Source: Deroplatys truncata
Lineage: Eukaryota; Arthropoda; Insecta; Mantodea; Mantidae
Length of the DNA: 64,000 nt
Reading direction: 5' to 3'
Assembly: GCA_030765065.1 (NCBI GenBank)
Contig: CM060977.1
Coordinates: forward strand, 131,940,295-132,004,294
Part shown: in pieces, positions 13,860 through 58,333 of the stretch
Layout: each line of letters begins with the position of its first letter
Position numbering within the stretch: position 1 is the first letter of the stretch
The notes under the pieces: generated by a model
Database searches by the model: none
Told to the model about the DNA's origin: nothing
Seen by the model: only the letters and a program-made list of their open reading frames with translations
Made by a program: the position numbers and the translations under genes

Positions 13860-13861
13860 TA

Positions 13862-24880: not shown

Positions 24881-24942
24881 CGGCGGTTTTAATGTTACTT
24901 ATGTGTTTAACATTAATATAGCACCACGTTTGGGAGCCAATT

Positions 24943-27840: not shown

Positions 27841-28170
27841 TGAAATTGATTTACCTTTTTGATGCTGTATGTTGCTGTTACTTTAATGTCCAGCGTTCTG
27901 CCCCATTCTCCTAGATTTGATGTCGCTTCTGCGTTGTGTTATGATGAATCTACGTCGTCTTGTGGTTTTATAGTTGAATTCCTTGTTGCATCGTAATCTC
28001 GGAATTACGATCGAAGTCTGTCGTCCCTGTTGTTTCTGGAATCTGCGTCTTGTAGATCATTTCACCGCTGCATTCCTGGTTACTCTGCTTCATTCCTAGT
28101 TAATTCTGCTACTTCCTGGTTATTCTTGTTCCTTTCCTAGTCATGTAGCCCCACGTTATGGGTGCCAATT

Positions 28171-29071
28171 TGCGAGAGCAAATATATGTTTTTACTTCAC
28201 GCGATGCCATCTTGTGTGACGTCACTCCTTGTTGGTTTGTTTAGCTCCATCTGGCGTAGCAATTTGTATCAGTTTTGAAATAATTCACTTTAAATGTTCT
28301 CCAGCTAGCTATTTAGGTAGACATTTAACTCTTGCAGGGTGTGAATCGGAAAGGAATCTTTTATCCAGAAATTATACTGACGAAGAAATTGGTTTTATAA
28401 CATTTATTGCCGAACACATTCACTAACACTTTTTACATATTTATCTGGATACTTGCCAAACTGAAACTGTTTGTAATAACTTCTCACTTTTTAACTCACG
28501 TACTTCGACTTTGTGTATATTTAACTGTATAATATTTTAGATTCTCGTAATTCTGCTGCGCGTAACTTGACGAAATGAAGGACTGGCTGACGATGTGTAG
28601 AGTACACGAAATTTTGATGAACTGAGCGGCCGACGTGTAGTGTATTGAGAATTCCGTTGAACTGGGGGAACGCTCCCTTGAACCTACACTATTTATAGGC
28701 TTGCCTCAAGATACGCCTAAAGATTATAAATGAACTGCTATTGGCTAATAAAACGCGCCAACATTAGCGTCTATTTTACTATCCAATGAAAACCACTAAT
28801 ACATATTTCTTTTAGGGAACATTCTAGAAGCTTTTTTACCGAAAAGGCGCGAAACATTACGTAACTTCCTGGTTCCCGGTAATGATAAACAACTCACCCC
28901 ATTGCTGCATTATTGCGTTATTCTTGACAGTTTCAGTAAAGCCGTATATTATTATTTACCAATAATAATTACAATTAATAAACCTCTGAAATCAATGTCA
29001 CATAAAAATACATATTCATATTACTATCATTAATTACATCTGAGTAATTTGTGATACAAATTACCGAATCA
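28171..29071 (-). repeat. 5' LTR of the minus-strand LTR retrotransposon
   Basis: Partner of 24943-25843 with the same length and no indels. The primer-binding-site-like sequence follows it at 28167-28148 on the minus strand. Confidence 0.92.
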
Positions 29072-39470: not shown

Positions 39471-39534
39471 CATTAGCAGTAGAAATATAATGAGAGAACG
39501 GAGCCATAAAGGATATGCCGCCATCTGATAAGCT

Positions 39535-39790
39535 TCTTTGATCTATGCCGCTAGCCCCGCCCCCTCCCTTTGAGGCCTCACATGCCGCCCCGGTCGCGTG
39601 GCGCTAGCCCCGCCCCCTTCCCTTTGTGGCCTCACCTAATGCCGACAGGTTCTGTGCCGGCAAGTCCTCCCCCCTCCCCCTGTGGTCACGTGCCGGTGAC
39701 CCGCCCCCTCCCTCCCCCCTTCGCTGGGTGGTACGCTCCCTCCCCTTTGTGGTTTGATTGGTTCCCTGTGGATAGGTGGGAGAGTGTGTA
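39535..39790. repeat. GC-rich subterminal region of the left arm
   Basis: A strongly GC-rich patch in an AT-rich setting. It contains a direct repeat of about 50 bp (GCTAGCCCCGCCCCCT, TTTG-GGCCTCAC, ATGCCG) at about 39550-39590 and 39602-39645, plus runs of C. Mirror at 54865-55120. Open frames on both strands here (74 and 128 codons) reflect GC content and repeats, not a gene. Confidence 0.8.
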
Positions 39791-40053
39791 TTGATCCTAT
39801 ACGACGGTCGCGTACCTTCCCTAGGCCTAAATCCCTGCCGTGTGATTGGCTTGGGGTAGGGGATGTGCCGCTCGGGGTGAGGGGTTATATGTGAGGGTTC
39901 TCGGTGCGTGACGTTGGCGATGTGGGAATGCGATTCTCGATGCCTGCCGCACATCGGCAAATCGTTTGAGTACATAATTGTGTCAATCAATTAGGTAATG
40001 TGTGTTATTGAAAAAAGAATCAATGTTTATATACCGCTATTGCAATTAAACGC

Positions 40054-42105
40054 TGTTCGTCGAGCAATTAAGTATTTTTGATTGAATCGCGCGCACCTGC
40101 CCCTAAACCGTCATTTATAACCTACTATTGTCAATAAATTACACGTCTAATGAAACAAGGCTAGTCTGTCGATGAAAACAATTAAGTATTTTTGAATGAT
40201 TAATTGACTCGCACGCAACTGTTCGTTATCGTATATGTGTGGTAGCATGTGTATAATTATTACGAGTAATAACATTTATTTAATTCTACTTTTGAGGGAA
40301 AATATATTTTGGATTTATAAGAATATTACAACACTTAGATGAAAGGACAGACTTGACGTAACACTCGTTATCGCGTGATAATTGCGGTGGAACACCGACC
40401 GCAACCTTCCGCGGCGAGACGTTTCACTGGAATGACTGACTCACGGTGCTTTCAAGGGACAAGTCGACTAGCGCACCCCCTCCACTCACGCTTCAGTTCG
40501 CTACCTACACTAGCGCGCCAAGTGGTAATATGAGTGAAACTCCAGCGAGTGTTCCCTCACAGCGCCCCTGGTGGTCATACCCGAAAGTTGTGAATTCACC
40601 ATATTTAAACTCATTATGGGTGCAAGACGGCCATCTTAACTCTATATAATTCTGCGAAATATGTTGGCTCCGGAGGAATTGATTATGAAATAAATAAAAA
40701 ATAAATAAGACTCTCGCTGATCAATGAATACAATTAAATATTTTTATTAATTAATGTAATTGACTCGCGCTCCTAGAGATATCTCACCTAATTATTCATC
40801 TACCATGAAAATCTCACTTCTAATGAAACGGCGCAGTCTATCGATTAAAAACAATTAAGTATTTTTGATTGATTAATGTAATTGAATCGCGCGCAACTGT
40901 TCGTTATCGTGTATGCGCGATTATTACGAGTAATAACGTTTGTTTAATTCTTCTTTTGAATTGAGGGTTTATAAAAAATATTACATTGCTTAGATGAATT
41001 AAAAAGCAACTTAAAGCGAAATTGCAAATAGCTTGTATGAGACGTTAACACGAGAACCCTTTACGAAAAAACAAGACGCAATGCGACAGCAATGCCCCGT
41101 CCATCATGAGAAGCGGTTAAACCAGGACGCTTGGGTTTTCCCCCAGTACCTGCTCTTAATGGCTAGGGGTATCCAGCACATCGGAGTACGCTTCAACTGA
41201 TGTTAAAAAATAAAAGCCCGCTATGTCTCTTCTCGCACGAGAGAAGTAATAATTACAATTCAAAACAGGCGTACCTGTAACACGCACGAAGACTTCAAAT
41301 ATAAATTTTATATTCGTTTTAAATGTTCTTTCTAAAGACGTAGCGAACTTTGAGAAATTCAACGAATTATTCACTTGCGTACACTTCTTGAAAGAAATAT
41401 GGTGTACACCCCTGAAGAATGCATATGTAAACACATTAGCAGACGACAGTCTCTTCCGCACCATTAATTATCTTCAGACGAAGGTAAAACCAAGGTCTTG
41501 TATAGAGCTCTTAGTGAACAATGACTGTCGTTTCCAGTTGATTAAACAGCCTAAGTGCTCTGAAAAACCACAGACACTCGGGGTAAATAACTATTAGCGA
41601 CACAAAAGATTTTCTTAAGAGCTTCCCCTGTGCAGAAATTCCATCATAGACAGTGGAAAACCAAGTCTAGACATGTTTTAAGCTTACCACAAAAAATGTT
41701 TTCCCGATAATTAATATAATTCTACATGAAGAATATTAATGATTAAGTTTTCAATTAAACGTATACTGTATAGATTCTGTACTTAAACATTCGATTGTAT
41801 CTTTGTCATTATTTAAATACTCGCATACAAGAATTGCAAACATGATATCAAAAAATTAAACTGATTTTTTTTTCGGAATGCTAAACAAAGAAATATGATT
41901 TGGCGAGAGTAATATGAAGAATAAAAAGTATTCAGAATGATAGATATTACATACGTTATTAAAAATAAATAAGGCTCTCGCTGATGGATGAAAACAATTA
42001 AATATTTTTTATTAATTAATTGTATATGGATTGACTTGCGCATCTGATTGGTAACGCATGTGCATGATTATTACGACTAATAGCATTTGTTTAATTCTAA
42101 ATAAA
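40054..42105. repeat. Five-copy interspersed motif in the left arm
   Basis: Copies near 40054, 40168, 40722, 40848 and 41985 share AACAATTAAGTATTTTTGAT, then TTAATGTAATTGA-TCGCGC, then (in three copies) CAACTGTTCGTTATCGT and the imperfect dyad ATTATTACGAGTAATAA followed by GTTTAATTCT. They are 100-130 bp each and absent elsewhere in the window except in the mirror arm (about 52555-54600). The interval also holds an ORF of 102 codons (41464-41156, -) without motif. Confidence 0.7.
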
Positions 42106-42532
42106 TAATGAAATATGGTGCCTAGCCTAAACAATCCTCGTTACTCTTAATTTATTCCATTTTTAAAAAGATTGGGCTTAGTAAACATAGGACGAGTACG
42201 ATTTTAAATACCCCGTCCATTCGAGAGATATTTTTTCGAATATTCCAACATGTTAATATAAACTTAATACACACACACACAAATTCATTTCAAGTAATCT
42301 AACGATATTGAATAAAATATTAAATGTTTAAGATATTGTAATGAGAAATGAAATGCATATCTCGAATTTTCTGGGCCGCAGGCTGCAGGATCGCTCATCA
42401 AATACCGTAATGATTCAGACACCCGAACACCCGAATGGTAAGCATTCTTCAGAGTTTTTAAATAAGTAATGTAACAATTCATATTAACTTCTTGTTCATA
42501 TTCTTTATTATTATTTGTATTATTATTTCCAG

Positions 42533-42658
42533 GAAGTGGACTTTATTTTGGTATCGACCATCCATCGAGCGCTGCACAGGCACCGCCAGGCTTCCAAACC
42601 TTCCTGGTACCAAATCATCATGGAGGCGGCTCTGCCACCCGTACATGCAGCAACACTC
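42533..42658 (+). other. Exon-like module M1
   Basis: Preceded by a pyrimidine-rich TATTATTTCCAG and followed by the donor GTAAGG at 42659. The 126-bp exon keeps phase 1 at both ends and reads SGLYFGIDHPSSAAQAPPGF followed by QTFLVPNHHGGGS. It is similar to M2 and M3; several differences from M2 are at third codon positions (ttt/ttc, caa/cag, ccg/ccc), which favours this frame as coding. The protein family is unknown and no start codon was found. Confidence 0.5.
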
Positions 42659-42979
42659 GTAAGGTAAGAATTTACAGATTGGTGTTCGAGCATTTGTAAC
42701 TAAAAATTACATAATAGTAGACATACATTGGCGATTCTAGCACACAAAGCCCTACCTCCGACAGCATAGAGTTCTGGATTGTATAAGGAGAAAAGGATAT
42801 ATTTAAGGGGAGTTTCTCACCCATATGCAGTCACATAACTCTATCGATCTCCCAGAATGCCATGTATTTTTAACGCAGGTGTTTAAAACATGTATTTTGT
42901 TTTTCACGTATAGAGTGTAGATTCTTTAGAACTCTATACTTAAACATGCTATACTATTATTATTATTTATTTTTTCCAG

Positions 42980-43169
42980 GAAATGGACTTTATTTCCGAG
43001 GCGGTATCGGTCAACATGCGAGCGCTGCACCGGTACCTCCAGGCTTCGCGACCGTTGCACCAGTAGGCTTCGCGACCGCTGCACCGCGACCCCCAGGCTT
43101 CCAGACCTACCTGGTACCACATCAGCAGGGATGGCGGCCCTGCCCCATACATGCAGCAAGCACCGAACG
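42980..43169 (+). other. Exon-like module M2
   Basis: Acceptor TTTTTTCCAG, donor GTAAGAATTT at 43170. The frame matching M1 reads NGLYFRGGIGQHASAAPVPP, GFATVAPVGFATAAPRPPGF and QTYLVPHQQG; the PPGF-T segment is triplicated compared with M1. The length of 190 bp is not a multiple of three, so the join to M3 would shift frame. M2 may therefore be decayed or use another donor. Confidence 0.5.
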
Positions 43170-43244
43170 GTAAGAATTTTTTCAATATTTTACGAAGTTC
43201 TTTTACACATTCTATATTATTATTAATATTGTTATTATTTTCAG

Positions 43245-43270
43245 GAAGTGGACTTTATTTCGGAGGCGGG
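43245..43270 (+). other. Exon-like module M3, cut off by an R2 fragment
   Basis: Acceptor TTATTATTTTCAG, then the same start as M1 and M2 (GAAGTGGACTTTATTTCGGA). After GGCGGG it passes straight into R2 sequence (43266-43560: TTCTGGGAATGTCTCCAAAA onward). The module is therefore truncated. Confidence 0.5.
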
Positions 43271-43570
43271 TTTTTCTGGGAATGTCTCCAAAAGTATTCT
43301 TCATTCTGAACGACTTTTGCAAAATTGATAAACCATAAGAGATAGACAAAATTGTACTACACAAAAAATGGAGATCGCGTTAAAATACATAATTTATATC
43401 ATATACATTCTTGTTGTTGAGTAAATCGTTTTCGAGATATTGCTTGTTATTCCCTTAAAATTTTCAAATACTTTTAACTTTTCTCAAGCGGTAACTCGCT
43501 ATTCGTTTTTCCCGTGGTAATGCATAGAGAATAGAATTATAAAGCCATCACATAGCATCAGACGTTTTTT
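43264..43570 (+). repeat. R2 fragment inside the left palindrome arm
   Basis: Contains TTCTGGGAATGTCTCCAAAA, GAACGACTTTTGCA, AACCATAAGAGATAGACAAA, GAGATATTGCTTGTTATTCC and GGTAATGCATAGAGAATAGA in family order. Its mirror lies at about 51090-51390, so R2 entered before the palindrome was duplicated. A second smaller piece is at 42297-42375. Confidence 0.8.
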
Positions 43571-43947
43571 AAACATCTGTAACGTGTCTATTCACAATCG
43601 AAAGGTTGCTGGTTCGAGGAAAATTATATCTACAGAAACAATACATTATTTTCGCTCTGTGATTAATTTGGTAATGTAACAATAATTAACAATGAATTTT
43701 TAGCGGTAAATGTAAAAAATAAAATATATTTTTTATTTCCTAGCGTCATACGCAGAAGCATTCCCCTTAAGGAACGCTGGCGTGAGCGATGGTTTCCCCC
43801 ATAACAGGTTTAGACTTGCTTACGAAATGTCCCTGTGCGAGGCTAGCATTTCCCTCTCCTTCTCGAATTTTTGGAGTAGCCAATCAAAATTACTGTATTA
43901 TATACCGTCACACCTCTCACCCCTTCAGGTTTTATCAGGCGAAGCGA

Positions 43948-43955
43948 TATAAAAG
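43948..43955 (+). promoter_or_regulatory. TATA box of gene A
   Basis: TATAAAAG, with an initiator-like TTCACT about 30 bases downstream (43975-43980) and the start codon at 44053. The spacing is that of an insect pol II core promoter. Mirror at 50705-50712. Confidence 0.65.
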
Positions 43956-44052
43956 CAATAGCTTCTCCGGCGATTTCACTGTATTGTGACAACACAGCGA
44001 GCTAAGATCTCTGCAAACTTTTCTCATTCAAAGTGAAATTTCAACGAACATC

Positions 44053-45046
44053 ATGTCTGGTAAGTTGTAACAAAACACATCATTTACTTTAAAAGTTAAA
44101 TTACTCTGTACATTTAACTTATATTCGCGTTCTTGTTTTTAATGCATGGCATTTATATGCGAATAGCTGAGTGTTCTAAAAGTTAATAGCTAGACAAGTG
44201 AATTTTCTGAAATGTGAACAATTTAGTTAAGTATTCATTTTAGGCAAGCTTATTCTACATTTAATAGCTAACTGCGCGAATTCTCAAAATGGGAACAATT
44301 TAGTTAAGTATTCACCTTGTTGAGTAATTATTATTCCAGATATTTAAATACAGGATTTCACAGAGTGAATTATATTCCTTTTTGGAGAAAATACAATTAT
44401 TTGAATACCTTATTAACCTTTTTGCTTTAGAATATTACAAAAAGTCTGTTGCGCGAATCATTCGCTCTAACAAAGTAAATATCTGCATTATATTAAAACA
44501 TTTAAATTGAAAAATACAGTACTTAATGAACTTCATTAGTGAATCAGAACCTCAATTATATTTACACATATTATCATTTTCAGAAAAAAGTTAATAAGTT
44601 TGTAACTTTCAAATAAATGAAATTTTGTTATGCAACACATTCTCTAATAAAGAATGTTTTTTTCTCTTCCTAATGCAGAAAGTTTGACATCTCAACTTAA
44701 CACATTGGCTGAGGGTAGCATTTACCCAACCGTTCAAAGACTACAAGATCTTCAGCCAGAGGAGCCTTATAACATAAAATCCTTAAGAAAAATTGATACT
44801 CGATACGGTGCTAGAGTCGTTGCACTTTTAGAGAATAAGCAAGTGTTTCTCCCGACAAGATATTCAACCCTAACAAGCCAACAGTTGGAGGAAATGCCTG
44901 GGAAGTTTCAAATGGTATATCATGGAGTAGTACCAGCCGGCAAGTTTAAGACATGTAAATTGTCTTTTCTTCCTATTAAGGTTTGTAGAAATAATTCAGC
45001 TATCCTTTCAAAGCTTCATTTAGAGTTACATTCGTTGAGTTTATAA
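44053..45046 (+). CDS. Gene A, left copy: spliced 124-residue protein of unknown function
   Basis: Exon 1 is only ATGTCTG (44053-44059). It is followed by a consensus donor GTAAGT and an intron of 619 bp ending TCTTCCTAATGCAG at 44678. Exon 2 runs 44679-45046; joined, they give 375 bases, exactly 125 codons with stop. The protein starts MSESLTSQLNTLAEGSIYP. It contains YNIKSLRKIDTRYGARVVAL then LENKQVFLPTRYSTL and FQMVYHGVV-KTCKLSFLPI. The alternating hydrophobic strands with a central YG and a FLP(T)RY step resemble small OB-fold-like proteins I have seen as multicopy orphans in arthropods; a single-strand DNA-binding role would be speculation. Upstream is a TATA box, downstream an AATAAA at 45809. 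It is convergent with gene B. A direct alternative, the unspliced ORF from 44654, would begin inside the intron. Confidence 0.7.
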
Positions 45047-45055
45047 ATTCGCACT

Positions 45056-45366
45056 TCAGTAGGATAACATTTGTCTAAAGTATACATCAATATGTAAAAA
45101 AATAACGTCCAGGATGTAGTCTGAGCGAGGATCTGCAGAAAGAAGTTTAATAGTCTATTCACTGATTCTTTACCTCAAAGCAGATACCTACAGCAAGTTT
45201 CAAATAATTTCCAGCAGGATAGCAGTTGTCAAAAGCATGCATCACTGTATTAAAAAAATATGTGTAAATAATGTCTAGATTGTACTCTGTGTGATTTCGT
45301 GCAGAAAGAACTTTAATACCCCTTGCAGTGATTCTCCACATCGAAGTATATACCTACAAGAAGTTG
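45056..45366 (+). repeat. 155-bp imperfect direct duplication after gene A
   Basis: Unit 1 (about 45056-45210) and unit 2 (about 45211-45366) share AGGATA-CA-TTGTC-AAAG, TGTAAA-AATGTC-AG, TGCAGAAAGAA-TTTAATA, CAGTGATTCT-AC and ATACCTACA-AAGTT-CAAATAAT. Both lie in the presumed 3' region of gene A. Mirror at about 49290-49600. Confidence 0.65.
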
Positions 45367-45808
45367 CAAATAATGTGAATGTGTGTTACAGGAATGCCCA
45401 GCTGAATGTAAATGAAGAGGAAGAACGAGATAGCTTAAAACATCATAAACAGAAATGTGATAGGAACATTCTCAACACCTCCCAGTAACCTCAATCAATG
45501 AAGAATTGCAGCAGCGCGGAACATACATGGAAAAAACATCCGCGTGTGTAGAATATAACAATAATATATATATATATATATAAATTATGTACTCATTATT
45601 ACTGCTATACCAGCCTATACCATTGATTTCATAAATTATTTCATAATTGTTTAAGGAGAATGCCTATCTTAAAAACATTGATGCTACATGAAATCTAAAC
45701 AAAAAGATTATTGAACTATTACTGAAAGAGACTTGAATAAATGGGAATCTAGAAGCCAGAACCATCTTAATATTGGGCTGTATGATATGAGGTGTATAAA
45801 AAGATTAA

Positions 45809-45814
45809 TAAAAA
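45809..45814 (+). terminator. Candidate poly(A) signal of gene A
   Basis: AATAAA on +. Thirty bases further a minus-strand AATAAA (45846-45841) serves gene B, so the two transcripts would overlap tail to tail. Confidence 0.4.
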
Positions 45815-45840
45815 ATGAGGTCTATGTAATATAAACAACA

Positions 45841-45846
45841 TTTATT
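45841..45846 (-). terminator. Candidate poly(A) signal of gene B
   Basis: AATAAA on minus, about 260 bases after the gene B stop codon. Mirror for the right copy at 48806-48811. Confidence 0.5.
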
Positions 45847-46102
45847 TTTTATAAACATTTTCCTATTACATTCCTATACAAAAAACATACATATTTCCTA
45901 AAGACAAAGGTGATAGTCTAGACATTCTAAAACACTCAGTTATATAATCATATACATCACACAGAAAGAGACCTACATTATCCATAAAAAACTAAACATC
46001 TCAAGAATGTCTGGATGATGTATTTTATAAGTACAAGGTTTTGATATTTCAAAGTTCCTGTTAACCATGACTGTAATTGATTAACACAATTTCTCGATCC
46101 TG

Positions 46103-46570
46103 TCATGCTATAACTTTAGAAGCTTTCAGCTTACTTATAATCTCCTCAATCTCTTGTGTGTGACTATTATTACCAGCATTCCTCGATGCAATTAGTAACC
46201 TCAATATATTTACTAGTCTATTTGGATTTTCAAGCGTAGATATCACTGAATCATCATCATATGAAGATTTCATATTCTCGCGACTCCCGCTGTATCCAGA
46301 TTTTTCACCATCAGTAGTCTCCAGTGAAGGACAGAGGCTTGATCCGGTATAACATCCCCCTCTATACATCTTCGGATCTTCGAGTGTAGGAGAGAGAGTC
46401 GATCCAGTATAACATGCTGTTCTATGAAGCTTAAATCTTGACAAAGAACGATTCTTAAAAATCCGCTCGCATATACAGCATCTAATGACGTGTTTTCCTC
46501 CATGTGTAATGTATGAAAAATTGAGTTTCTCATCCGCTAGTTGCACAGATTTTCTCCGGCAGGAGCTCAT
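46103..46570 (-). CDS. Gene B, left copy: 155-residue C2HC zinc-finger-like protein
   Basis: Single exon, ATG at 46570-46568. The protein starts MSSCRRKSVQLADEKLNFSY. A CCICERIFKNRSLSRFKLHR segment with a later Cys gives a C-x2-C-x14-H-x3-C pattern, a plausible zinc knuckle or finger, at residues 31-53. It is followed by an internal tandem repeat (CYTGSTLSPTLEDPKM, then CYTGSSLCPSLETTDG, then GYSGS) and a helical C-terminus (LVNILRLLIASRNAG to EEIISKLKASK). There is a TATA box 91 bases upstream and a poly(A) signal downstream. The right copy differs by a single residue near position 14 (Asp here, Val there). The conserved frame between arms is expected from their youth, so it is weak evidence for selection. 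No match to a named family; a DNA-binding role is inference. Confidence 0.68.
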   Translation of the reverse strand: MSSCRRKSVQLADEKLNFSYITHGGKHVIRCCICERIFKNRSLSRFKLHRTACYTGSTLSPTLEDPKMYRGGCYTGSSLCPSLETTDGEKSGYSGSRENMKSSYDDDSVISTLENPNRLVNILRLLIASRNAGNNSHTQEIEEIISKLKASKVIA

Positions 46571-46660
46571 GCTAAAACTAAAAGAAATTAAATGAATACG
46601 GGAATGCTAACGCTCGAAGGAATTAGAAGCGAATGAATGAATTCATAACACGCAGCTATG

Positions 46661-46668
46661 TATATATC
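46661..46668 (-). promoter_or_regulatory. TATA box of gene B, left copy
   Basis: Minus strand GGATATATACATAGC, about 95 bases from the ATG. Mirror at 47985-47992. The two promoters point away from each other across the central minisatellite. Confidence 0.5.
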
Positions 46669-46715
46669 CAGTGTGAGGACGCCGGAGGGAATCGGAATCT
46701 TCGCATAGCAGCGGG

Positions 46716-46890
46716 AAAGGATGCTCTCTGGAAACATTGGTGGAGAAGGAGGCTCTCAACAGAACATGGCGAATGCGAGCATGGAAAAAGGATGCTTTCT
46801 GGGAACATTCGTGGAAAAAGGATGCTCTCAACAGAACATAACGAGTGCGAGCATGGAAAAAGGATGTTCTCTGGAAACGTTTGTGGAAAA
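46716..46890 (+). repeat. About 72-bp tandem repeat, 2.5 copies, next to the gene B promoter
   Basis: Units starting at about 46716, 46787 and 46858 share AAAGGATGCTCTCTGGAAAC, TTGGTGGAGAAGGA and CTCTCAACAGAACAT, then GAGTGCGAGCATGGAA. Mirror at about 47765-47940. Confidence 0.85.
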
Positions 46891-46892
46891 GG

Positions 46893-47755
46893 CTGCGTAA
46901 CAATGGAATCACGCTATGTAACAAAGGAATCGCGCTATGTAACAAAGGAATCACGCTATGTAACAAAGGAATCGCGCTATGTAACAAAGGAATCGCGCTA
47001 TGTAACAAAGGAATCGCGCCATGTAACAAAGGAATCACGCTATGTAACAAACTGATCAGGCTATGTAACAAAGAAATCACGCTATGTAACAAAGGAATCA
47101 CGTTATGTAACAAAGGAATCGCGCTATGTAACAAAGGAATCGCGCTATGTAACAAAGGAATCACGCTATGTAACAAACGAATCACGCTATGTAACAAACT
47201 GATCAGGCTATGTAACAAAGAAATCACGCTATGTAACAAAGGAATCGCGTTATGTAACAAAGGAATCGCGCTATGTAACAAAGGAATCACGCTATGTAAC
47301 AAAGGAATCGCGCTATGTAACAAAGGAATCGCGCTATGTAACAAAGGAATCGCGCCATGTAACAAAGGAATCACGCTATGTAACAAACTGATCAGGCTAT
47401 GTAACAAAGAAATCGCGCTATGTAACAAAGGAATCACGTTATGTAACAAAGGAATCGCGCTATGTAACAAAGGAATCGCGCTATGTAACAAAGGAATCCC
47501 GCTATGTAACAAACGAATCACGCTATGTAACAAACGAATCACGCTATGTAACAAATGAATCACGCTATGTAACAAAGAAATCACGCTATGTAACAAAGGA
47601 ATCACGCTATGTAACAAAGGAATCACTCTATGTAACAAAGGAATCACGCTATGTAACAAAGGAATCACGCAATGTAACAAAGGAATCACGCTATGTAACA
47701 ATGGAATCACGCTATGTAACAAACTGGTCAGGTACATAGCGCAATCAGGTTGTTA
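46893..47755. repeat. Central 21-bp minisatellite, about 40 units, on the palindrome axis
   Basis: The unit contains AACAAAGGAATCACGCTATG plus one T. Variants include CGC for CAC, GATCAG-type units and single-base changes. Higher-order order is visible: a block of about 8 units ending AACTGATCAGG recurs. All units share one orientation except a final inverted partial unit at 47732-47757, so the array is the asymmetric spacer of the palindrome. Because 21 is a multiple of three, both strands stay open for over 200 codons (a seven-residue repeat, LCNKGIA on + and LLHSVIP on -). I do not count these as genes. Confidence 0.95.
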
Positions 47756-47984
47756 CGCAGCCTTTTCCACAAACGTTTCCAGAGAGCATCCTTTTTCCAT
47801 GCTCGCACTCGTTATGTTCTGTTGAGAGCATCCTTTTTCCACGAATGTTCCCAGAGAGCATCCTTTTCCATGCTCGCATTCGCCATGTTCTGTTGAGAGC
47901 CTCCTTCTCCACCAATGTTTCCAGAGAGCATCCTTTCCCGCTGCTATGCGAAGATTGCGATTCCCTCCGGCGTCCTCACACTGG

Positions 47985-47992
47985 ATATATAC
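47985..47992 (+). promoter_or_regulatory. TATA box of gene B, right copy
   Basis: GGATATATACATAGC on +, at the same distance from the ATG (48082) as in the left arm. Confidence 0.5.
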
Positions 47993-48081
47993 ATAGCTGC
48001 GTGTTATGAATTCATTCATTCGCTTTTAATTCCTTCGAGCGTTAGCATTCCCGTATTCATTTAATTTCTTTTAGTTTTAGC

Positions 48082-48549
48082 ATGAGCTCCTGCCGGAGAA
48101 AATCTGTGCAACTAGCGGTTGAGAAACTCAATTTTTCATACATTACACATGGAGGAAAACACGTCATTAGATGCTGTATATGCGAGCGGATTTTTAAGAA
48201 TCGTTCTTTGTCAAGATTTAAGCTTCATAGAACAGCATGTTATACTGGATCGACTCTCTCTCCTACACTCGAAGATCCGAAGATGTATAGAGGGGGATGT
48301 TATACCGGATCAAGCCTCTGTCCTTCACTGGAGACTACTGATGGTGAAAAATCTGGATACAGCGGGAGTCGCGAGAATATGAAATCTTCATATGATGATG
48401 ATTCAGTGATATCTACGCTTGAAAATCCAAATAGACTAGTAAATATATTGAGGTTACTAATTGCATCGAGGAATGCTGGTAATAATAGTCACACACAAGA
48501 GATTGAGGAGATTATAAGTAAGCTGAAAGCTTCTAAAGTTATAGCATGA
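48082..48549 (+). CDS. Gene B, right copy: 155-residue C2HC zinc-finger-like protein
   Basis: Mirror of 46570-46103, same length and same C2HC pattern, internal CYTGS repeats and helical C-terminus. It has Val instead of Asp near residue 14 (QLAVEKLNF). Its poly(A) signal is at 48806. It faces the right copy of gene A tail to tail. Confidence 0.68.
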   Translation: MSSCRRKSVQLAVEKLNFSYITHGGKHVIRCCICERIFKNRSLSRFKLHRTACYTGSTLSPTLEDPKMYRGGCYTGSSLCPSLETTDGEKSGYSGSRENMKSSYDDDSVISTLENPNRLVNILRLLIASRNAGNNSHTQEIEEIISKLKASKVIA

Positions 48550-49069
48550 CAGGATCGAGAAATTGTGTTAATCAATTACAGTCATGGTTAATAGGAACTT
48601 TGAAATATCAAAACCTTGTACTTATAAAATACATCATCCAGACATTCTTGAGATGTTTAGTTTTTTATGGATAATGTAGGTCTCTTTCTGTGTGATGTAT
48701 ATGATTATATAACTGAGTGTTTTAGAATGTCTAGACTATCACCTTTGTCTTTAGGAAATATGTATGTTTTTTGTATAGGAATGTAATAGGAAAATGTTTA
48801 TAAAAAATAAATGTTGTTTATATTACATAGACCTCATTTTTTATTAATCTTTTTATACACCTCATATCATACAGCCCAATATTAAGATGGTTCTGGCTTC
48901 TAGATTCCCATTTATTCAAGTCTCTTTCAGTAATAGTTCAATAATCTTTTTGTTTAGATTTCATGTAGCATCAATGTTTTTAAGATAGGCATTCTCCTTA
49001 AACAATTATGAAATTATTTATGAAATCAATGGTATAGGCTGGTATAGCAGTAATAATGAGTACATAATT

Positions 49070-49101
<32 letters not shown>

Positions 49102-49611
49102 ATATTCTACACACGCGGATGTTTTTTCCATGTATGTTCCGCGCTGCTGCAATTCTTCATTGATTGAGGTTACTGGGAGGTGTTGAGAATGTTCCTATCA
49201 CATTTCTGTTTATGATGTTTTAAGCTATCTCGTTCTTCCTCTTCATTTACATTCAGCTGGGCATTCCTGTAACACACATTCACATTATTTGCAACTTCTT
49301 GTAGGTATATACTTCGATGTGGAGAATCACTGCAAGGGGTATTAAAGTTCTTTCTGCACGAAATCACACAGAGTACAATCTAGACATTATTTACACATAT
49401 TTTTTTAATACAGTGATGCATGCTTTTGACAACTGCTATCCTGCTGGAAATTATTTGAAACTTGCTGTAGGTATCTGCTTTGAGGTAAAGAATCAGTGAA
49501 TAGACTATTAAACTTCTTTCTGCAGATCCTCGCTCAGACTACATCCTGGACGTTATTTTTTTACATATTGATGTATACTTTAGACAAATGTTATCCTACT
49601 GAAGTGCGAAT

Positions 49612-50607
49612 TTATAAACTCAACGAATGTAACTCTAAATGAAGCTTTGAAAGGATAGCTGAATTATTTCTACAAACCTTAATAGGAAGAAAAGACAATT
49701 TACATGTCTTAAACTTGCCGGCTGGTACTACTCCATGATATACCATTTGAAACTTCCCAGGCATTTCCTCCAACTGTTGGCTTGTTAGGGTTGAATATCT
49801 TGTCGGGAGAAACACTTGCTTATTCTCTAAAAGTGCAACGACTCTAGCACCGTATCGAGTATCAATTTTTCTTAAGGATTTTATATTATAAGGCTCCTCT
49901 GGCTGAAGATCTTGTAGTCTTTGAACGGTTGGGTAAATGCTACCCTCAGCCAATGTGTTAAGTTGAGATGTCAAACTTTCTGCATTAGGAAGAGAAAAAA
50001 ACATATTCTTTATTAGAGAATGTGTTGCACAACAAAATTTCATTTATTTGAAAGTTACAAACTTATTAACTTTTTTCTGAAAATGATAATATGTGTAAAT
50101 ATAATTGAGGTTCTGATTCACTAATGAAGTTCATTAAGTACTGTATTTTTCAATTTAAATGTTTTAATATAATGTAGATATTTACTTTGTTAGAGCGAAT
50201 GATTCGCGCAACAGACTTTTTGTAATATTCTAAAGCAAAAACGTTAATAAGGTATTCAAATAATTGTATTTTCTCCAAAAAGGAATATAATTCACTCTGT
50301 GAAATCCTGTATTTAAATATCTGGAATAATAATTACTCAACAAGGTGAATACTTAACTAAATTGTTCCCATTTTGAGAATTCGCGCAGTTAGCTATTAAA
50401 TGTAGAATAAGCTTGCCTAAAATGAATACTTAACTAAACTGTTCACATTTCAGAAAATTCACTTGTCTAGCTATTAACTTTTAGAATACTCAGCTATTCG
50501 CATATAAATGCCATGCATTAAAAACAAGAACGCGAATATAAGTTAAATGTACAGAGTAATTTAACTTTTAAAGTAAATGATGTGTTTTGTTACAACTTAC
50601 CAGACAT
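49612..50607 (-). CDS. Gene A, right copy: spliced 124-residue protein
   Basis: Exon 1 at 50607-50601 (ATGTCTG), donor at 50600, acceptor before 49979, exon 2 at 49979-49612. The predicted protein appears identical to the left copy. The TATA box is at 50712-50705. Both arms keep donor, acceptor, branch-side pyrimidines and promoter unchanged. Confidence 0.7.
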
Positions 50608-50704
50608 GATGTTCGTTGAAATTTCACTTTGAATGAGAAAAGTTTGCAGAGATCTTAGCTCGCTGTGTTGTCACAATACAGTGAAATCGCCGGAGAAGCT
50701 ATTG

Positions 50705-50712
50705 CTTTTATA
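50705..50712 (-). promoter_or_regulatory. TATA box of gene A, right copy
   Basis: TATAAAAG on minus, mirror of 43948-43955. Confidence 0.65.
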
Positions 50713-51490
50713 TCGCTTCGCCTGATAAAATCTGAAGGGGTGAGAGGTGTGACGGTATATAATACAGCAATTTTGATTGGCTACTCCAAAAATTCGAGAA
50801 GGAGAGGGAAATGCTAGCCTCGCACAGGGACATTTCGTAAGCAAGTCTAAACCTGTTATGGGGGAAACCATCGCTCACGCCAGCGTTCCTTAAGGGGAAT
50901 GCTTCTGCGTATGACGCTAGGAAATAAAAAATATATTTTATTTTTTACATTTACCGCTAAAAATTCATTGTTAATTATCGTTACATTACCAAATTAATCA
51001 CAGAGCGAAAATAATGTATTGTTTCTGTAGATATAATTTTCCTCCAACCAGCAACCTTTCGATTGTGAATAGACACTTTACAGATGTTTAAAAAACGTCT
51101 GATGCTATGTGATGGCTTTATAATTCTATTCTCTATGCATTACCACGGGAAAAACGAATAGCGAGTTACCGCTTGAGAAAAGTTAAAAGTATTTGAAAAT
51201 TTTAAGGGAATAACAAGCAATATCTCGAAAACGATTTACTCAACAACAAGAATGTATATGATATAAATTATGTATTTTAACGCAATCTCCATTTTTTGTG
51301 TAGTAAAATTTTGTCTATCTCTTATGGTTTATCAATTTTGCAAAAGTCGTTCAGAATGAAGAATACTTTTGGAGACATTCCCAGAAAAACCCGCCTCCGA
51401 AATAAAGTCCACTTCCTGAAAATAATAACAATATTAATAATAATATAGAATGTGTAAAAGAACTTCGTAAAATATTGAAAAAATTCTTAC

Positions 51491-51680
51491 CGTTCGGTGC
51501 TTGCTGCATGTATGGGGCAGGGCCCCCATCCCTGCTGATGTGGTACCAGGTAGGTCTGGAAGCCTGGGGGTCGCGGTGCAGCGGTTGCGAAGCCTACTGG
51601 TGCAACGGTCGCGAAGCCTGGAGGTACCGGTGCAGCGCTCGCATGTTGACCGATACCGCCTCCGAAATAAAGTCCATTTC
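51491..51680 (-). other. Exon-like module M2, right copy
   Basis: Mirror of 42980-43169 with the same splice sites; a few substitutions only. The truncated M3 mirror lies at about 51388-51415. Confidence 0.5.
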
Positions 51681-51998
51681 CTGGAAAAAATAAATAATAA
51701 TAGTATAGCATGTTTAAGTATAGAGTTCTAAAGAATCTACACTCTATACGTGAAAAACAAAATACATGTTTTAAACACCTGCGTTAAAAATACATGGCAT
51801 TCTGGGAGATCGATAGAGTTATGTGACTGCTTATGGGTGAGAAACTCCCCTTAAATATATCCTTTTCTCCTTATACAATCCAGAACTCTATGCTGTCGGA
51901 GGTAGGGCTTTGTGTGCTAGAATCGCCAATGTATGTCTACTATTATGTAATTTTTAGTTACAAATGCTCGAACACCAATCTGTAAATTCTTACCTTAC

Positions 51999-52124
51999 GA
52001 GTGTTGCTGCATGTACGGGTGGCAGAGCCGCCTCCATGATGATTTGGTACCAGGAAGGTTTGGAAGCCTGGCGGTGCCTGTGCAGCGCTCGATGGATGGT
52101 CGATACCAAAATAAAGTCCACTTC
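51999..52124 (-). other. Exon-like module M1, right copy
   Basis: Mirror of 42533-42658 with identical acceptor and donor. Confidence 0.5.
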
Positions 52125-52554
52125 CTGGAAATAATAATACAAATAATAATAAAGAATATGAACAAGAAGTTAATATGAATTGTTACATTACTTATTTAAA
52201 AACTCTGAAGAATGCTTACCATTCGGGTGTTCGGGTGTCTGAATCATTACGGTATTTGATGAGCGATCCTGCAGCCTGCGGCCCAGAAAATTCGAGATAT
52301 ACATTTCATTTCTCATTACAATATCTTAAACATTTAATATTTTATTCAATATCGTTAGATTACTTGAAATGAATTTGTGTGTGTGTATTAAGTTTATATT
52401 AACATGTTGGAATATTCGAAAAAATATCTCTCGAATGGACGAGGTATTTAAAATCGTACTCGTCCTATGTTTACTAAGCCCAATCTTTTTAAAAATGGAA
52501 TAAATTAAGAGTAACGAGGATTGTTTAGGCTAGGCACCATATTTCATTATTTAT

Positions 52555-54600
52555 TTAGAATTAAACAAATGTTATTAGTCGTAATAATCATGCACATGCG
52601 TTACCAATCAGATGCGCAAGTCAATCCATATACAATTAATTAATAAAAAATATTTAATTGTTTTCATCGATCAGCGAGAGCCTTATTTATTTTTAATAAC
52701 GTATGTAATATCTATCATTCTGAATACTTTTTATTCTTCATATTACTCTCGCCAAATCATATTTCTTTGTTTAACATTCCGAAAAAAAAATCAGTTTAAT
52801 TTTTTGATATCATGTTTGCAATTCTTGTATGCGAGTATTTAAATAATGACAAAGATACAATCGAATGTTTAAGTACAGAATCTATACAGTATACGTTTAA
52901 TTGAAAACTTAATCATTAATATTCTTCATGTAGAATTATATTAATTATCGGGAAAACATTTTTTGTGGTAAGCTTAAAACATGTCTAGACTTGGTTTTCC
53001 ACTGTCTATGATGGAATTTCTGCACAGGGGAAGCTCTTAAGAAAATCTTTTGTGTCGCTAATAGTTATTTACCCCGAGTGTCTGTGGTTTTTCAGAGCAC
53101 TTAGGCTGTTTAATCAACTGGAAACGACAGTCATTGTTCACTAAGAGCTCTATACAAGACCTTGGTTTTACCTTCGTCTGAAGATAATTAATGGTGCGGA
53201 AGAGACTGTCGTCTGCTAATGTGTCTACATATGCATTCTTCAGGGGTGTACACCATATTTCTTTCAAGAAGTGTACGCAAGTGAATAATTCGTTGAATTT
53301 CTCAAAGTTCGCTACGTCTTTAGAAAGAACATTTAAAACGAATATAAAATTTATATTTGAAGTCTTCGTGCGTGTTACAGGTACGCCTGTTTTGAATTGT
53401 AATTATTACTTCTCTCGTGCGAGAAGAGACATAGCGGGCTTTTATTTTTTAACATCAGTTGAAGCGTACTCCGATGTGCTGGATACCCCTAGCCATTAAG
53501 AGCAGGTACTGGGGGAAAACCCAAGCGTCCTGGTTTAACCGCTTCTCATGATGGACGGGGCATTGCTGTCGCATTGCGTCTTGTTTTTTCGTAAAGGGTT
53601 CTCGTGTTAACGTCTCATACAAGCTATTTGCAATTTCGCTTTAAGTTGCTTTTTAATTCATCTAAGCAATGTAATATTTTTTATAAACCCTCAATTCAAA
53701 AGAAGAATTAAACAAACGTTATTACTCGTAATAATCGCGCATACACGATAACGAACAGTTGCGCGCGATTCAATTACATTAATCAATCAAAAATACTTAA
53801 TTGTTTTTAATCGATAGACTGCGCCGTTTCATTAGAAGTGAGATTTTCATGGTAGATGAATAATTAGGTGAGATATCTCTAGGAGCGCGAGTCAATTACA
53901 TTAATTAATAAAAATATTTAATTGTATTCATTGATCAGCGAGAGTCTTATTTATTTTTTATTTATTTCATAATCAATTCCTCCGGAGCCAACATATTTCG
54001 CAGAATTATATAGAGTTAAGATGGCCGTCTTGCACCCATAATGAGTTTAAATATGGTGAATTCACAACTTTCGGGTATGACCACCAGGGGCGCTGTGAGG
54101 GAACACTCGCTGGAGTTTCACTCATATTACCACTTGGCGCGCTAGTGTAGGTAGCGAACTGAAGCGTGAGTGGAGGGGGTGCGCTAGTCGACTTGTCCCT
54201 TGAAAGCACCGTGAGTCAGTCATTCCAGTGAAACGTCTCGCCGCGGAAGGTTGCGGTCGGTGTTCCACCGCAATTATCACGCGATAACGAGTGTTACGTC
54301 AAGTCTGTCCTTTCATCTAAGTGTTGTAATATTCTTATAAATCCAAAATATATTTTCCCTCAAAAGTAGAATTAAATAAATGTTATTACTCGTAATAATT
54401 ATACACATGCTACCACACATATACGATAACGAACAGTTGCGTGCGAGTCAATTAATCATTCAAAAATACTTAATTGTTTTCATCGACAGACTAGCCTTGT
54501 TTCATTAGACGTGTAATTTATTGACAATAGTAGGTTATAAATGACGGTTTAGGGGCAGGTGCGCGCGATTCAATCAAAAATACTTAATTGCTCGACGAAC
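52555..54600. repeat. Five-copy interspersed motif, right arm
   Basis: Mirror of 40054-42105, all five copies retained. Confidence 0.7.
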
Positions 54601-54864
54601 AGCGTTTAATTGCAATAGCGGTATATAAACATTGATTCTTTTTTCAATAACACACATTACCTAATTGATTGACACAATTATGTACTCAAACGATTTGCCG
54701 ATGTGCGGCAGGCATCGAGAATCGCATTCCCACATCGCCAACGTCACGCACCGAGAACCCTCACATATAACCCCTCACCCCGAGCGGCACATCCCCTACC
54801 CCAAGCCAATCACACGGCAGGGATTTAGGCCTAGGGAAGGTACGCGACCGTCGTATAGGATCAA

Positions 54865-55120
54865 TACACACTCTCCCACCTATCCACAGGGAACCAATCA
54901 AACCACAAAGGGGAGGGAGCGTACCACCCAGCGAAGGGGGGAGGGAGGGGGCGGGTCACCGGCACGTGACCACAGGGGGAGGGGGGAGGACTTGCCGGCA
55001 CAGAACCTGTCGGCATTAGGTGAGGCCACAAAGGGAAGGGGGCGGGGCTAGCGCCACGCGACCGGGGCGGCATGTGAGGCCTCAAAGGGAGGGGGCGGGG
55101 CTAGCGGCATAGATCAAAGA
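54865..55120. repeat. GC-rich subterminal region of the right arm
   Basis: Mirror of 39535-39790, including the 50-bp direct repeat. Confidence 0.8.
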
Positions 55121-55184
55121 AGCTTATCAGATGGCGGCATATCCTTTATGGCTCCGTTCTCTCATTATATTTCTACTATTAGCA

Positions 55185-55573: not shown

Positions 55574-56810
55574 CACTATGTGATCAAAAGTATCCGCACA
55601 GCCCGACAAACACACTTTATCATCTTAGGTGCATTCTGCTACCATCTACTGCCTGGTACTCAATATCCGGACCTCAGTAGTCATTAGACATCGTGAAACA
55701 GCAGAATAGGACGCTCCGTGGAACTCACGTACTTCGAACGTGGTCACGTGATTGGGTGTCACTTGTGTCAGAAGTCTGTACGCGAGATTTCCACACCCCT
55801 AAACATCCCTAGGTCCTCTGTTTCTGATTTGATAGTGAAGTGGAAATGTGAAGGGACATGTACAGCACAAAAGCTTACAGGCCGACCTCGTCTGTTGACT
55901 GACAGAGACCGCCGACATTTGAAGAGGATCGTAAAGAGTAATAGGCAGATATCTATCCAGACCATCACACAGGAATTTCAAACTGCATTAGGATCCACAC
56001 CAAGTACTATGACAGGTGTGAGGTGAGCAACCTTGGATTCCATGGTCGAGCGGCTGCTCAAAACCCACACATCACGCAGTAGAATGCCAATCGACGTCTC
56101 GCTTGGTGTAAGGAGCGTCAACATTACGCGATTGAACAGTGGCAAAACGTTGTGTGGAGTGACGAATCACGGTACATAATGTGGCGATCCGATGGCACGG
56201 TGTGGGTATGGCGAATGCCCGGTGAACGTCATCTGCCAGCGTGTGTAGTGCCAACAGTGAAATTCGGAGGTTGTGGTGTTATGGTGTGGTCGTGTTTTTC
56301 CTGGAGGGGGCTTGCACCTATTGTTGTTTTGCGTGGCACGATCACAGCGCAGACCTACATTGCTATTTTAAGCATCTTCTTGCTTCGCACTGTTGAAGAG
56401 CAATTCGGGGATGGCGATTGCATCTTTCAACACGATCGAGCACTTGTTCATACTGCACGGGCTGTGGCGGAGTGGTTACACGAAAATAACATCCCTGTAA
56501 TGGACTGGCCTGCACAGAGTCCTGACTTGAATTCTATAGAACACCTTTGGGATGTTTTGGAACGCCGACGCCAGGCCTCACGGACCTACATCGATACCTC
56601 TCCTCAGTTCCGCACTCTGTGAAGAATGGGCTGCCATTCCCCAAGAAACCTTCCAGCACCTGATTGAAAGTATGCCTGCGAGAGTGAACGCTGTTATCAA
56701 GGCTAAGGGTGGGCCAACACCATATTGACTTCCAGCATTACCGATGGAGGGCGCCACGAACTTGTACGTCATTTTCACCCAGGTGTTCGGATACTTTTGA
56801 TCACGTAGTG
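55574..56810 (+). mobile_element. Tc1-like transposon, copy C, most complete
   Basis: 1237 bp, flanked by TA (55572-55573, 56811-56812). Ends read CACTATGTGATCAAAAGTAT and, from the right, CACTACGTGATCAAAAGTAT. It retains almost the full transposase and is inserted in the presumed hAT-like remnant just right of the palindrome. Confidence 0.93.
55718..56730 (+). pseudogene. Tc1 transposase pseudogene (DD34E), copy C
   Basis: First block 55718-56026: MELTYFERGHVIGCHLCQKS, NIPRSSVSDLIVKWKCEGTC then GRPRLLTDRDRRHLKRIVKS (paired HTH and GRPR-like hook). A frameshift near 56020 (missing bases in TMTGVR, where copy B reads TMTVRREVRNLG) leads to the second block 56152-56622. There MWSDESRYIMWRSDGTVWVW has the first D, FQHDRALVHTA the second D, and DLNSIEHLWD the catalytic E. 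A further deletion after LERRRQASR shifts frame before the C-terminus. One stop-free domain each side, but not a functional gene. Confidence 0.9.
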
Positions 56811-57063
56811 TAGATTCACCCACAAGAAACGCAGTGAAGATCTATCCAGAACTATAGTCCAGCAACTCTAGGCAATAACGTGAAGTCTCGACTCCTTTCA
56901 TTCCTTATTTAACAAAATTTAATGCAAAAACGTTCAATAATGCAAAACTTAAAAATTTGAAAGTATCGAAGGTTTATCTCAAACTATTAGACATACTTCG
57001 TCAGCACTGACTATCACAGTATCGAGATATCGACGGTATCGAGGTCCCATCCCTAATTTAAAC

Positions 57064-57374: not shown

Positions 57375-58333
57375 CAATGAAAGCAGTTGGACTGGACGGC
57401 ACCCTAATGCCATCTGAACGGCACGAATCAGAAAATCTGGCTACTATGCGCTAGGGTCTCTGTGAACACGTGTAGAAGCAAGATGGTGTGATTACAGGGG
57501 TGAGACCTGGAAGGCTAACTGTCCGCCTTTCTATATGAAAGCAGCAGTTGGACTGGACTGCACCCTAATACCATCTGCACGGCACGAAGCAGAAGATCTA
57601 TTTGCTATGCGCTAGGGTCTCTGTGAACACATGACGAAACAAGATGGTGTGGTTACACGGAGGAGACCTAGAAGGCTAACTGTCCGCCTTTCTATATGAA
57701 AGCAGCAGTTGGACTGGACGGCACCCTAATGCTATCTGCACGACACGAATCAGAAAATCTGGCTACTATGCGCTAGGGTCTCTGTGAACACGTGTAGAAG
57801 CAAGATGGTGTGGTTACACGGAGGAGACCTAGAAGGCTAACTGTCCGCCTTTCTATATGAAAGCAGCAGTTGGACTGGACGGCACCCTAATGCTATCTGC
57901 ACGGCACGAATGAGAAAATCTGGCTACTATGCGCTAGGGTCTCTGTGAACACGTGTAGAAGCAAGATGGTGTGGTTACACGGAGGAGACCTAGAAGGCTA
58001 ACTGTCCGCCTTTCTATATGAAAGCAGCAGTTGGACTGGACGGCACCCTAATGCTATCTGCACGGCACGAATCAGAAAATCTGGCTACTATGCGCTAGGG
58101 TCTCTGTGAACACGTGTAGAAGCAAGATGGTGTGGTTACACGGAGGAGACCTAGAAGGCTAACTGTCCGCCTTTCTATATGAAAGCAGCAGTTGGACTGG
58201 ACGGCACCCTAATGCTATCTGCACGGCACGAATCAGAAAATCTGGCTACTATGCGCTAGGGTCTCTGTGAACACGTGTAGAAGCAAGATGGTGTGGTTAC
58301 AGGGATGAGACCTAGAAGGCTAACTGTCCGCCA
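57375..58333 (+). repeat. Satellite array, six units of about 161 bp
   Basis: Starts of the GTTGGACTGGACGGCACCCT block occur at about 57386, 57546, 57707, 57868, 58030 and 58191. Each unit continues CTGCACGGCACGAATCAGAA, GGCTACTATGCGCTAGGGTC, TCTGTGAACACGTGTAGAAG and CTAACTGTCCGCCTTTCTAT. Units 3-6 are almost identical; units 1 and 2 differ more (CATCTG for TATCTG, ATTTGCT for GGCTACT). The last unit ends abruptly after GTCCGCC. Confidence 0.95.

Follow-up and report, generated by a model that had tools for sequence, protein, structure and literature searches.

The window analysed here, a stretch of 64,000 nucleotides from contig CM060977.1 of the Deroplatys truncata assembly GCA_030765065.1, contains a palindrome of 15,700 bp (39478-55177) in which two arms of ~7.4 kb, 99.4% identical, lie around a 21-bp minisatellite. 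The features are collected in Table 1. When aligned from the ends inwards (39478-46903 against 55177-47750), the arms give 7,434 columns at 99.41% identity around an axis at 47327.5 and differ by 30 mismatches and 14 gap columns. The large palindrome reported in a preliminary description of this DNA, with its axis placed at 47327, is therefore real. The outer boundaries given there are corrected to A39478 as the first base and T55177 as the last, and the termini of the element are AGTAGAAATATAA...TTATATTTCTACT. Each arm carries two open reading frames, ORF A and ORF B, and the N-terminal part of ORF B contains a C2HC-like finger recognised by eye. No matches were obtained when the window was scanned for Rfam families and tRNAs. 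Elsewhere in the genome an ND2-like frame, named by eye, is found upstream of COX1 and on its strand; the two are translated with the invertebrate mitochondrial code, which together with a genome of 4.29 Gb suggests an insect, perhaps a polyneopteran. The junction at which this palindrome family was born is concealed within the minisatellite.

Table 1. Features of the palindromic element and its target site in the window. C11 is the full-length copy described in the text.
Feature	Position	Strand	Remark
Left target-site duplication	39472..39477		ATTAGC
Left arm	39478..46903	+	terminus AGTAGAAATATAATGAGAGAACGG
Outer arm segment	39478..42298		94% identity to C11 right end, 21247-18337
Arm segment	42376..43267		89% identity to C11 16082-15171
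Arm segment	43272..44409		89-90% identity to C11 17930-17666 and 17455-16496; not in the C11 order
ORF A, 130 aa	44654..45046	+	no Pfam or PHROGs match
ORF B, 155 aa	46103..46570	-	new N-terminal part plus 41-aa tail of a Polinton ORF
72-bp repeats, 2.4 copies	46716..46890		at inner end of arm; similar 71-bp repeats at 47757-47936
Loop, 21-bp minisatellite	46897..47723		39 copies, single orientation
Right arm	47750..55177	-	inverted copy, 99.4% identity to left arm
ORF B, right-arm copy	48082..48549	+	
ORF A, right-arm copy	49612..50004	-	listed from upstream start as 49612-50043
Right target-site duplication	55178..55183		ATTAGC

The element is flanked by an exact target-site duplication of 6 bp. 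The sequences CATTAGCA and TATTAGCA, previously read as an 8-bp duplication with one mismatch, each contain these 6 bp, bordered on one side by the element's terminal A or T and on the other by a base of the flank. A perfect 6-bp duplication and the termini AGTAG...CTACT were present in every one of the 15 copies that were read at both ends. An 8-bp duplication of the hAT or P type, with which the element had been compared, was thus ruled out. The palindromic copies read at both ends (13 of 13) each have two different flanks next to a matching duplication. Joined to each other, the flanks of the window element match repeat copies elsewhere, and all 40 that were scored span the join at 85-88% identity; the window element is therefore a true insertion. 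The matched 6 bp and the unoccupied paralogous sites bear out the earlier proposal that a single linear unit had integrated; that proposal had named empty sites in related strains as support, and the ones found here lie in the same genome. Like ends, palindromes and 6-bp duplications also occur at other loci, with duplications differing between copies as the preliminary description had anticipated, and so both chance and a local assembly artefact fail as an explanation. The 15.7-kb palindrome is a real mobile element that was inserted recently.

Far from lacking a second copy, a possibility raised at the outset, the window palindrome is one among hundreds of like copies. An exact 30-mer from ORF A occurs 606 times in the genome and one from the capsid gene 209 times. 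Among 150 ORF A matches, 56 of 56 pairs were in +/- orientation and 38 matches were unpaired, and the first 100 exact ORF-A word matches listed gave the same picture (45 of 45 pairs +/-, 10 unpaired). There are at least five palindrome make-ups, one right-end family and four left-end. One copy, C16c, is only partly palindromic, with 3.3-kb arms within 11.1 kb and a single copy of ORF A.

The relationship of the arms to a known transposon was apparent from C11, a full-length copy of 20.6 kb in the same genome. It encodes a double-jelly-roll capsid (PF21738, 1.3e-110), an A32-type packaging ATPase (Pox_A32, PF04665, 5.7e-7), an RVE integrase (rve, PF00665, 2.2e-9; NCBIfam IS481 at 8.2e-17, under its cut-off), a phospholipase A2/Adeno_PX protein and a 1279-aa ORF in which PolB motifs were recognised by eye. 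This PolB-like ORF gave no significant match in Pfam, NCBIfam, PHROGs or PDB; matches to PF03175 were found at other loci of the same genome. C11 is a Polinton/Maverick. Its inverted repeats and those of a further full-length copy, C5, are 0.63 kb long as against the 7.4-kb arms of the window element. The window arm is collinear in blocks with the right end of C11, about two thirds of it being derived, with rearrangement, and the rest being new sequence. Together with the ends and the duplication length, this assigns the element to the Polinton/Maverick family of the same genome and not to an undescribed class as first suggested. Searches of the window element found no RVE integrase, protein-primed family B polymerase, double-jelly-roll capsid or packaging ATPase. 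Given that the RVE integrase was found in C11 but not here, the window element was classed as a non-autonomous derivative and not as a complete Polinton, and since neither integrase nor polymerase was found in the unit, it has probably moved in trans, as had also been proposed. No relatives of ORF A, PolB or the capsid were confirmed in viral contigs.

In an outer arm segment, the two arms of an element differ by 0.14-0.8% in seven of eight cases, whereas 1.5-4.8% separates them from the nearest other element; in element C8 the outer arms are non-sister. The closeness of sister arms indicates that both came from one recent parent molecule or have been kept alike. Several arms are, in their inner segment, closer to another element than to their own partner. 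Gene conversion between the arms after insertion could be another way of keeping them alike. The window copy has zero mismatches in the outer 1.95 kb of its arms, but the idea of terminal homogenisation was dropped because six right-end elements pooled showed no such trend: their mismatches, counted kb by kb inwards from the terminus, numbered 50, 34, 28, 29, 35, 27 and 24.

The junctions of the left-end palindromes can be read directly. Each of the four inverted capsid-gene pairs among the best 100 capsid matches proved to be one palindrome of the left end, flanked by a 6-bp duplication, and no two of the four share a junction. In C9L and C16L only 22 and 18 nt separate the forward from the reverse copy and short self-complementarity was seen by eye (4-bp AAAA/TTTT and 3-bp AGC/GCT). 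C10L and C4L join points that lie 6.1 and 4.5 kb from each other on the parental map and share at most 1 nt of sequence. Of the four junctions, C9L and C16L fit a fold-back at short inverted repeats, and the other two do not. Each palindrome make-up, we infer, represents an independent birth, and the existence of other palindromic forms of the same transposon suggests that fold-backs arise repeatedly.

Taken together, the window palindrome is very probably a non-autonomous Polinton/Maverick derivative that arose through fold-back or a strand switch as linear DNA was replicated and was then integrated by a helper. The setting would be the extrachromosomal replication of a linear, protein-primed Polinton molecule, in which the growing strand would fold back at a short inverted repeat, or switch to the opposite strand, and would then copy back to the end at which it had started. 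Both ends of the product would be alike and would bear an origin and a tip for integrase binding, so that a helper Polinton, acting in trans, could replicate the product and use its own integrase to insert it, as with a defective-interfering genome. To judge from gene content, palindromic Polintons presumably need such a helper. One product would then have gained ORFs A and B and the minisatellite loop and given rise to a very successful repeat family including the window member.

An alternative to fold-back priming, which we regard as possible though clearly less likely, is that two copies of a single replicating linear molecule broke and were joined end to end. The junctions of C10L and C4L, with their distant joined points and next to no shared sequence, are of the kind expected, but they suit the joining of two replicated molecules and strand switching equally. 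The short gaps and self-complementarity of C9L and C16L argue for fold-back, as breaks made independently would seldom lie this near to each other. Both routes may operate.

It is highly improbable that the element is autonomous and of a new class with ORF A or ORF B as its mobility enzyme. Both ORFs occur in right-end palindromes, ORF A is missing in both C11 and C5, and none of the best-scoring 150 ORF A matches, a selected set, contains an internal stop. However, the full-length copies, which lack ORF A, produce the same 6-bp duplication, and the variation in ORF A and in the C-terminal part of ORF B is about that of non-coding DNA (0.82% and 0.71% against 0.77%; N/S rate ratios of 0.60 and 0.79, from few sites). 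Profile and fold searches gave no enzyme fold or family for either ORF, contrary to the unrecognised enzyme suspected there earlier; the AlphaFold model of ORF A was poor (pLDDT 37).

An artefact of assembly or library, where a fold-back read or a collapsed inverted copy creates a false palindrome, is largely refuted and highly unlikely: long palindromes are a known artefact class and the arms of the complex copy C16L align with 29 gap openings, but all 13 palindromic copies read at both ends have differing flanks and, at their outer edges, a perfect 6-bp duplication. The divergence of arms by substitutions (the 30 of the window copy), the hundreds of loci and the paralogous empty sites also stand against it. 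A chromosomal rearrangement, either head-to-head Polinton insertions with loss of the intervening DNA or inverted duplication in place, is scarcely credible even in a genome with many Polinton copies, as independent insertions would have unmatched outer 6-mers, which match in 13 of 13, and the left-end arms differ by 0.13-0.3% as against about 1.8% between two full-length copies. The paralogous empty site likewise tells against a local inverted duplication and a neighbouring double insertion.

The Polinton palindromes have counterparts in the palindromic defective genomes of protein-primed linear DNAs, such as adenovirus defective-interfering DNA and the yeast pGKL1 derivative F1. These too consist of one end as an inverted dimer with origins at both ends and with essential genes lost, so that a helper is presumably required, but the Polinton palindromes are integrated in the host genome in hundreds of copies. 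A bolder reading, which we consider unlikely though not negligible, is that palindromic Polintons form a self-sustaining, inherited transposon family of hyperparasites resembling defective-interfering genomes. Each amplification would form the palindrome anew from one parent strand, hence the like arms, and ORFs A and B would serve replication or competition with the helper. Foldback and MITE-like elements are also non-autonomous, with long inverted repeats and minisatellite content; they belong to other transposase classes with other duplication lengths, whereas the arms and ends of the window element are those of a Polinton.

Vertebrate (PMC8097293) and stick-insect (PMC5691397) Mavericks share with the window family the 6-bp duplication and the AGT.../...ACT termini, and they too measure about 15-20 kb. 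A further likeness comes by way of C11, with its capsid, ATPase, RVE integrase and PolB-like gene, while the window element differs in being a palindrome of one end in which no core genes were found. Inverted amplicons formed in yeast by ODIRA (PMC10766183) likewise owe their junctions to a strand switch at short inverted repeats in the course of replication, but these are chromosomal, arise at cellular replication forks and involve no mobile element. For Polinton-like viruses the authors' filter admitted terminal inverted repeats of 100 bp to 8 kb according to the main text of PMC12220804, so repeats of kilobases are possible, and the duplications are short at about 4-6 bp. Those are gene-bearing viruses with terminal repeats; the passages compared describe no near-complete palindrome, and the string 'palindrom-' is absent from that main text. 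Among the open-licence papers listed by the literature searches, no title or opening part of an abstract dealt with palindromic Polintons.

To our knowledge, Polinton replication has so far been inferred from genes and never seen directly. With their readable fold-back junctions and intact ends, the integrated palindromes look like fossil traces of errors in linear extrachromosomal replication, and as such are indirect evidence that Polintons replicate as free linear DNA. Annotators of large genomes should bear in mind that a giant palindrome can be a mobile element and not an artefact. The palindromic Polintons offer a natural and datable case of defective genomes turned into a successful parasite family.

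The window element was inserted as one linear unit. The window (G000:C3:131940295-132004294, in a source genome of 4.29 Gb and 818 contigs) contains two inverted arms which align with 99.41% identity over 7,434 columns, of which 30 are mismatched and 14 gapped. The termini are exact, AGTAGAAATATAA and its complement, and the target, ATTAGC, is duplicated exactly over 6 bp. The preliminary description gave an 8-bp duplication with one mismatch because the repeat as read took in one base of the element itself, its terminal A or T, as well as a flanking base. When the two 120-base flanks were joined with one copy of the 6-mer retained, the junction was spanned in all 40 scored places in the same genome (85-88% identity; 2,828 candidates). 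This indicates that the element lies inside an older repeat, other copies of which lack it.

The preliminary description had looked to an end search for further copies with the same ends and different duplications, and these were found. The first 201 bases matched 40 scored places at 94-100% identity (3,003 first-look candidates), 32 of which form 16 pairs, all +/-, spaced 11-21 kb. Each of the 15 elements read at both ends begins with AGTAG, finishes with CTACT and is flanked by an exact 6-bp duplication; besides that of the window element, the duplications are CATGTG (twice), AAGTTA, CTACTC, CACGTA, CCCCCC, GGCATA, AGTAAG, TACAGG, CATGCT, AATGAA, CGTGTC, GGTGTC and AACAGG. The sample was non-random, comprising the window element, nine copies from the tip search, four from inverted capsid-gene pairs and one, of which the ends alone were read, from the ORF-A list. 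The script used selected pairs of matching 6-mers and so by itself gives no independent evidence of duplication; its positions agree to a few bases (C10L, within 11) with palindrome or terminal-repeat bounds found without the 6-mer condition. The ends of the right-end element C16c, which had no tip match in the first end reading, rest on palindrome bounds and this script. Thirteen of the 15 are palindromic, C16c partly so (3.3-kb arms in 11.1 kb); the full-length copies C11 and C5 have inverted repeats of about 635 bp only.

Judged by sequence, the parent of the window element is a Polinton/Maverick and the arms are a rearranged right end of a C11-type copy, with C11-derived blocks making up approximately two thirds of each arm (see table). 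C11 and C5 are both 20.6 kb and are 98.2% alike over 17.3 kb. The gene scan covered the ten ORFs of C11 and found a double-jelly-roll capsid protein (PF21738, 1.3e-110), a phospholipase A2-like/Adeno_PX protein, an rve integrase and a Pox_A32-type ATPase, the last also matching phrog_197 (Zot-like, 1.9e-4). A 1279-aa ORF gave no significant family or PDB match; by eye it contains YADIES, NNLYGASM, MNNAVYGK and YMDTDS, which we take to be family-B polymerase (PolB) motifs. The PF03175 polymerase profile is matched at other loci of the genome by ORFs that reach roughly 1,300 aa; the example tabulated is absent among the 84 scored C11-family PolB matches listed, and such ORFs probably belong to other Polinton lineages. 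The vertebrate Mavericks described in PMC8097293 have 6-bp duplications and AGT/ACT end motifs.

Features of the window and related elements (C11 positions refer to the full-length reference copy)
Feature	Position	Detail
Window element arms	window 39478-46903 and 55177-47750	inverted
21-bp minisatellite	window 46897-47723	between arms
Arm block 1	C11 21247-18337	94% identity
Arm blocks 2	C11 16082-15171 and 17930-16496	89-90% identity
New sequence	inward of C11 16082-15171/17930-16496 blocks	holds ORF A
Innermost C11 piece	C11 9176-9049	short, inside ORF B
C8 right-end element	G000:C8:39725842-39742422	
C10L junction	C11 forward to 11934, back from 5849	
C4L junction	C11 7862 / 12380	
C9L junction	C11 11522 / 11500	
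C16L junction	C11 8925 / 8907	twice in double palindrome
28.7-kb double palindrome	G000:C16:687828382-687857108	two copies of one fold-back, axis near C11 8925
PF03175 match (example)	C3:71465795-71467303	
Direct repeats	window 24916-25843 and 28143-29071	929 bp, 99.5% identity, spacing 2.3 kb
398-aa ORF	window 26644-27840, minus strand	between direct repeats; no Pfam match at 0.01
DDE_3 transposase fragments	window 13323-13904 and 56152-56622	
Repeat, two copies	window 12929-13861 and 55884-56812	92% identity
Tandem repeat	window 57382-58332	161 bp, 5.9 copies, 95% matches; 2.2 kb outside palindromic element
COX1 groups (examples)	C16, 611.2-611.4, 638.0-638.3, 672.5-673.0 Mb	

The direct repeats and their enclosed ORF are possibly an LTR-type element. 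COX1 matches number 99 in the genome, mostly on chromosome-size contigs and some grouped on the 707-Mb C16, which suggests nuclear mitochondrial insertions duplicated later.

Each of the eight right-end palindromes read from end to end carries ORF A (130 aa; a single copy in C16c), which was not found in C11 or C5; the C-terminal end of ORF B corresponds to a Polinton ORF tail. Some copies of ORF A are broken in the right arms of C6 and C8. With C16c left out, mean pairwise variation was 0.82% for ORF A and 0.71% for the C-terminal part of ORF B, level with the 0.77% of non-coding DNA. The nonsynonymous to synonymous (N/S) rate ratio was 0.60 for ORF A (17 N, 8 S) and 0.79 for the ORF B part (11 N, 4 S), and no constraint is evident in these figures at the shallow depth compared. 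An exact ORF A 30-mer has 606 occurrences, 299 on one strand and 307 on the other, which on halving gives about 300 palindromes with that word, and a capsid-gene 30-mer has 209 (106 and 103); as single words these undercount diverged copies. Reversed control 30-mers gave zero matches in the genome. The best 150 ORF-A matches include 56 pairs, all +/-, 3.5-12.7 kb apart, and 38 unpaired; the first 100 exact words listed give 45 pairs, all +/-, and 10 unpaired.

In the outer segment the partner arm is the nearest relative in seven of eight elements, at 0.14-0.8% divergence with the nearest other element at 1.5-4.8%. Gene conversion after insertion may keep arms alike. C8 is the exception: its two outer arms are closest to different sequences, a pattern that would fit two half-molecules from separate copies becoming joined or recombining. 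For the inner ORF-A segment, partners are 0.1-0.46% apart in the five elements with the partner arm among the three nearest, and the nearest other element is at 0.3-0.9%, or 2.3% for C16c, of which one arm only was comparable. C8, C13 and one C6 arm are in this segment at least as close to another element as to their own partner, which indicates that the ORF A-ORF B module is younger or was spread by recombination.

Left ends are also found as palindromes. The best 100 capsid matches include eight in four pairs, all -/+, and 92 unpaired. Reading of the four pairs showed each to be a single insertion with the left end duplicated, a 6-bp target duplication and a junction that differs from the other three. 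By eye, the strand reverses in C9L between AAAA and TTTT, which enclose an 18-nt loop, and in C16L at AGC...GCT; the C10L and C4L junctions share at most 1 nt. The halves of the double palindrome, itself a single insertion with a 6-bp duplication, are linked by a stretch of roughly 1 kb that shows no similarity to C11. Arm-to-arm identity in the left-end palindromes is 99.7-99.9%, against about 98% between C11 and C5, and thus both arms come from one parent. On C11-map positions none of the four holds the whole PolB ORF, and C16L ends before the integrase as well; the 84 scored PolB matches contain no pair.

The window element has Polinton ends without the core genes, and palindromes of several make-ups exist. 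The most likely route, we infer, is that in a linear, protein-primed Polinton a displaced or growing strand folds back or switches strand, and that the product is an inverted dimer, functional at both ends, which the polymerase and integrase of a helper amplify and insert. Among the matches listed from open-licence literature, no title or abstract opening dealt with palindromic Polintons. Their nearest parallels are defective adenovirus genomes and derivatives of yeast linear plasmids.
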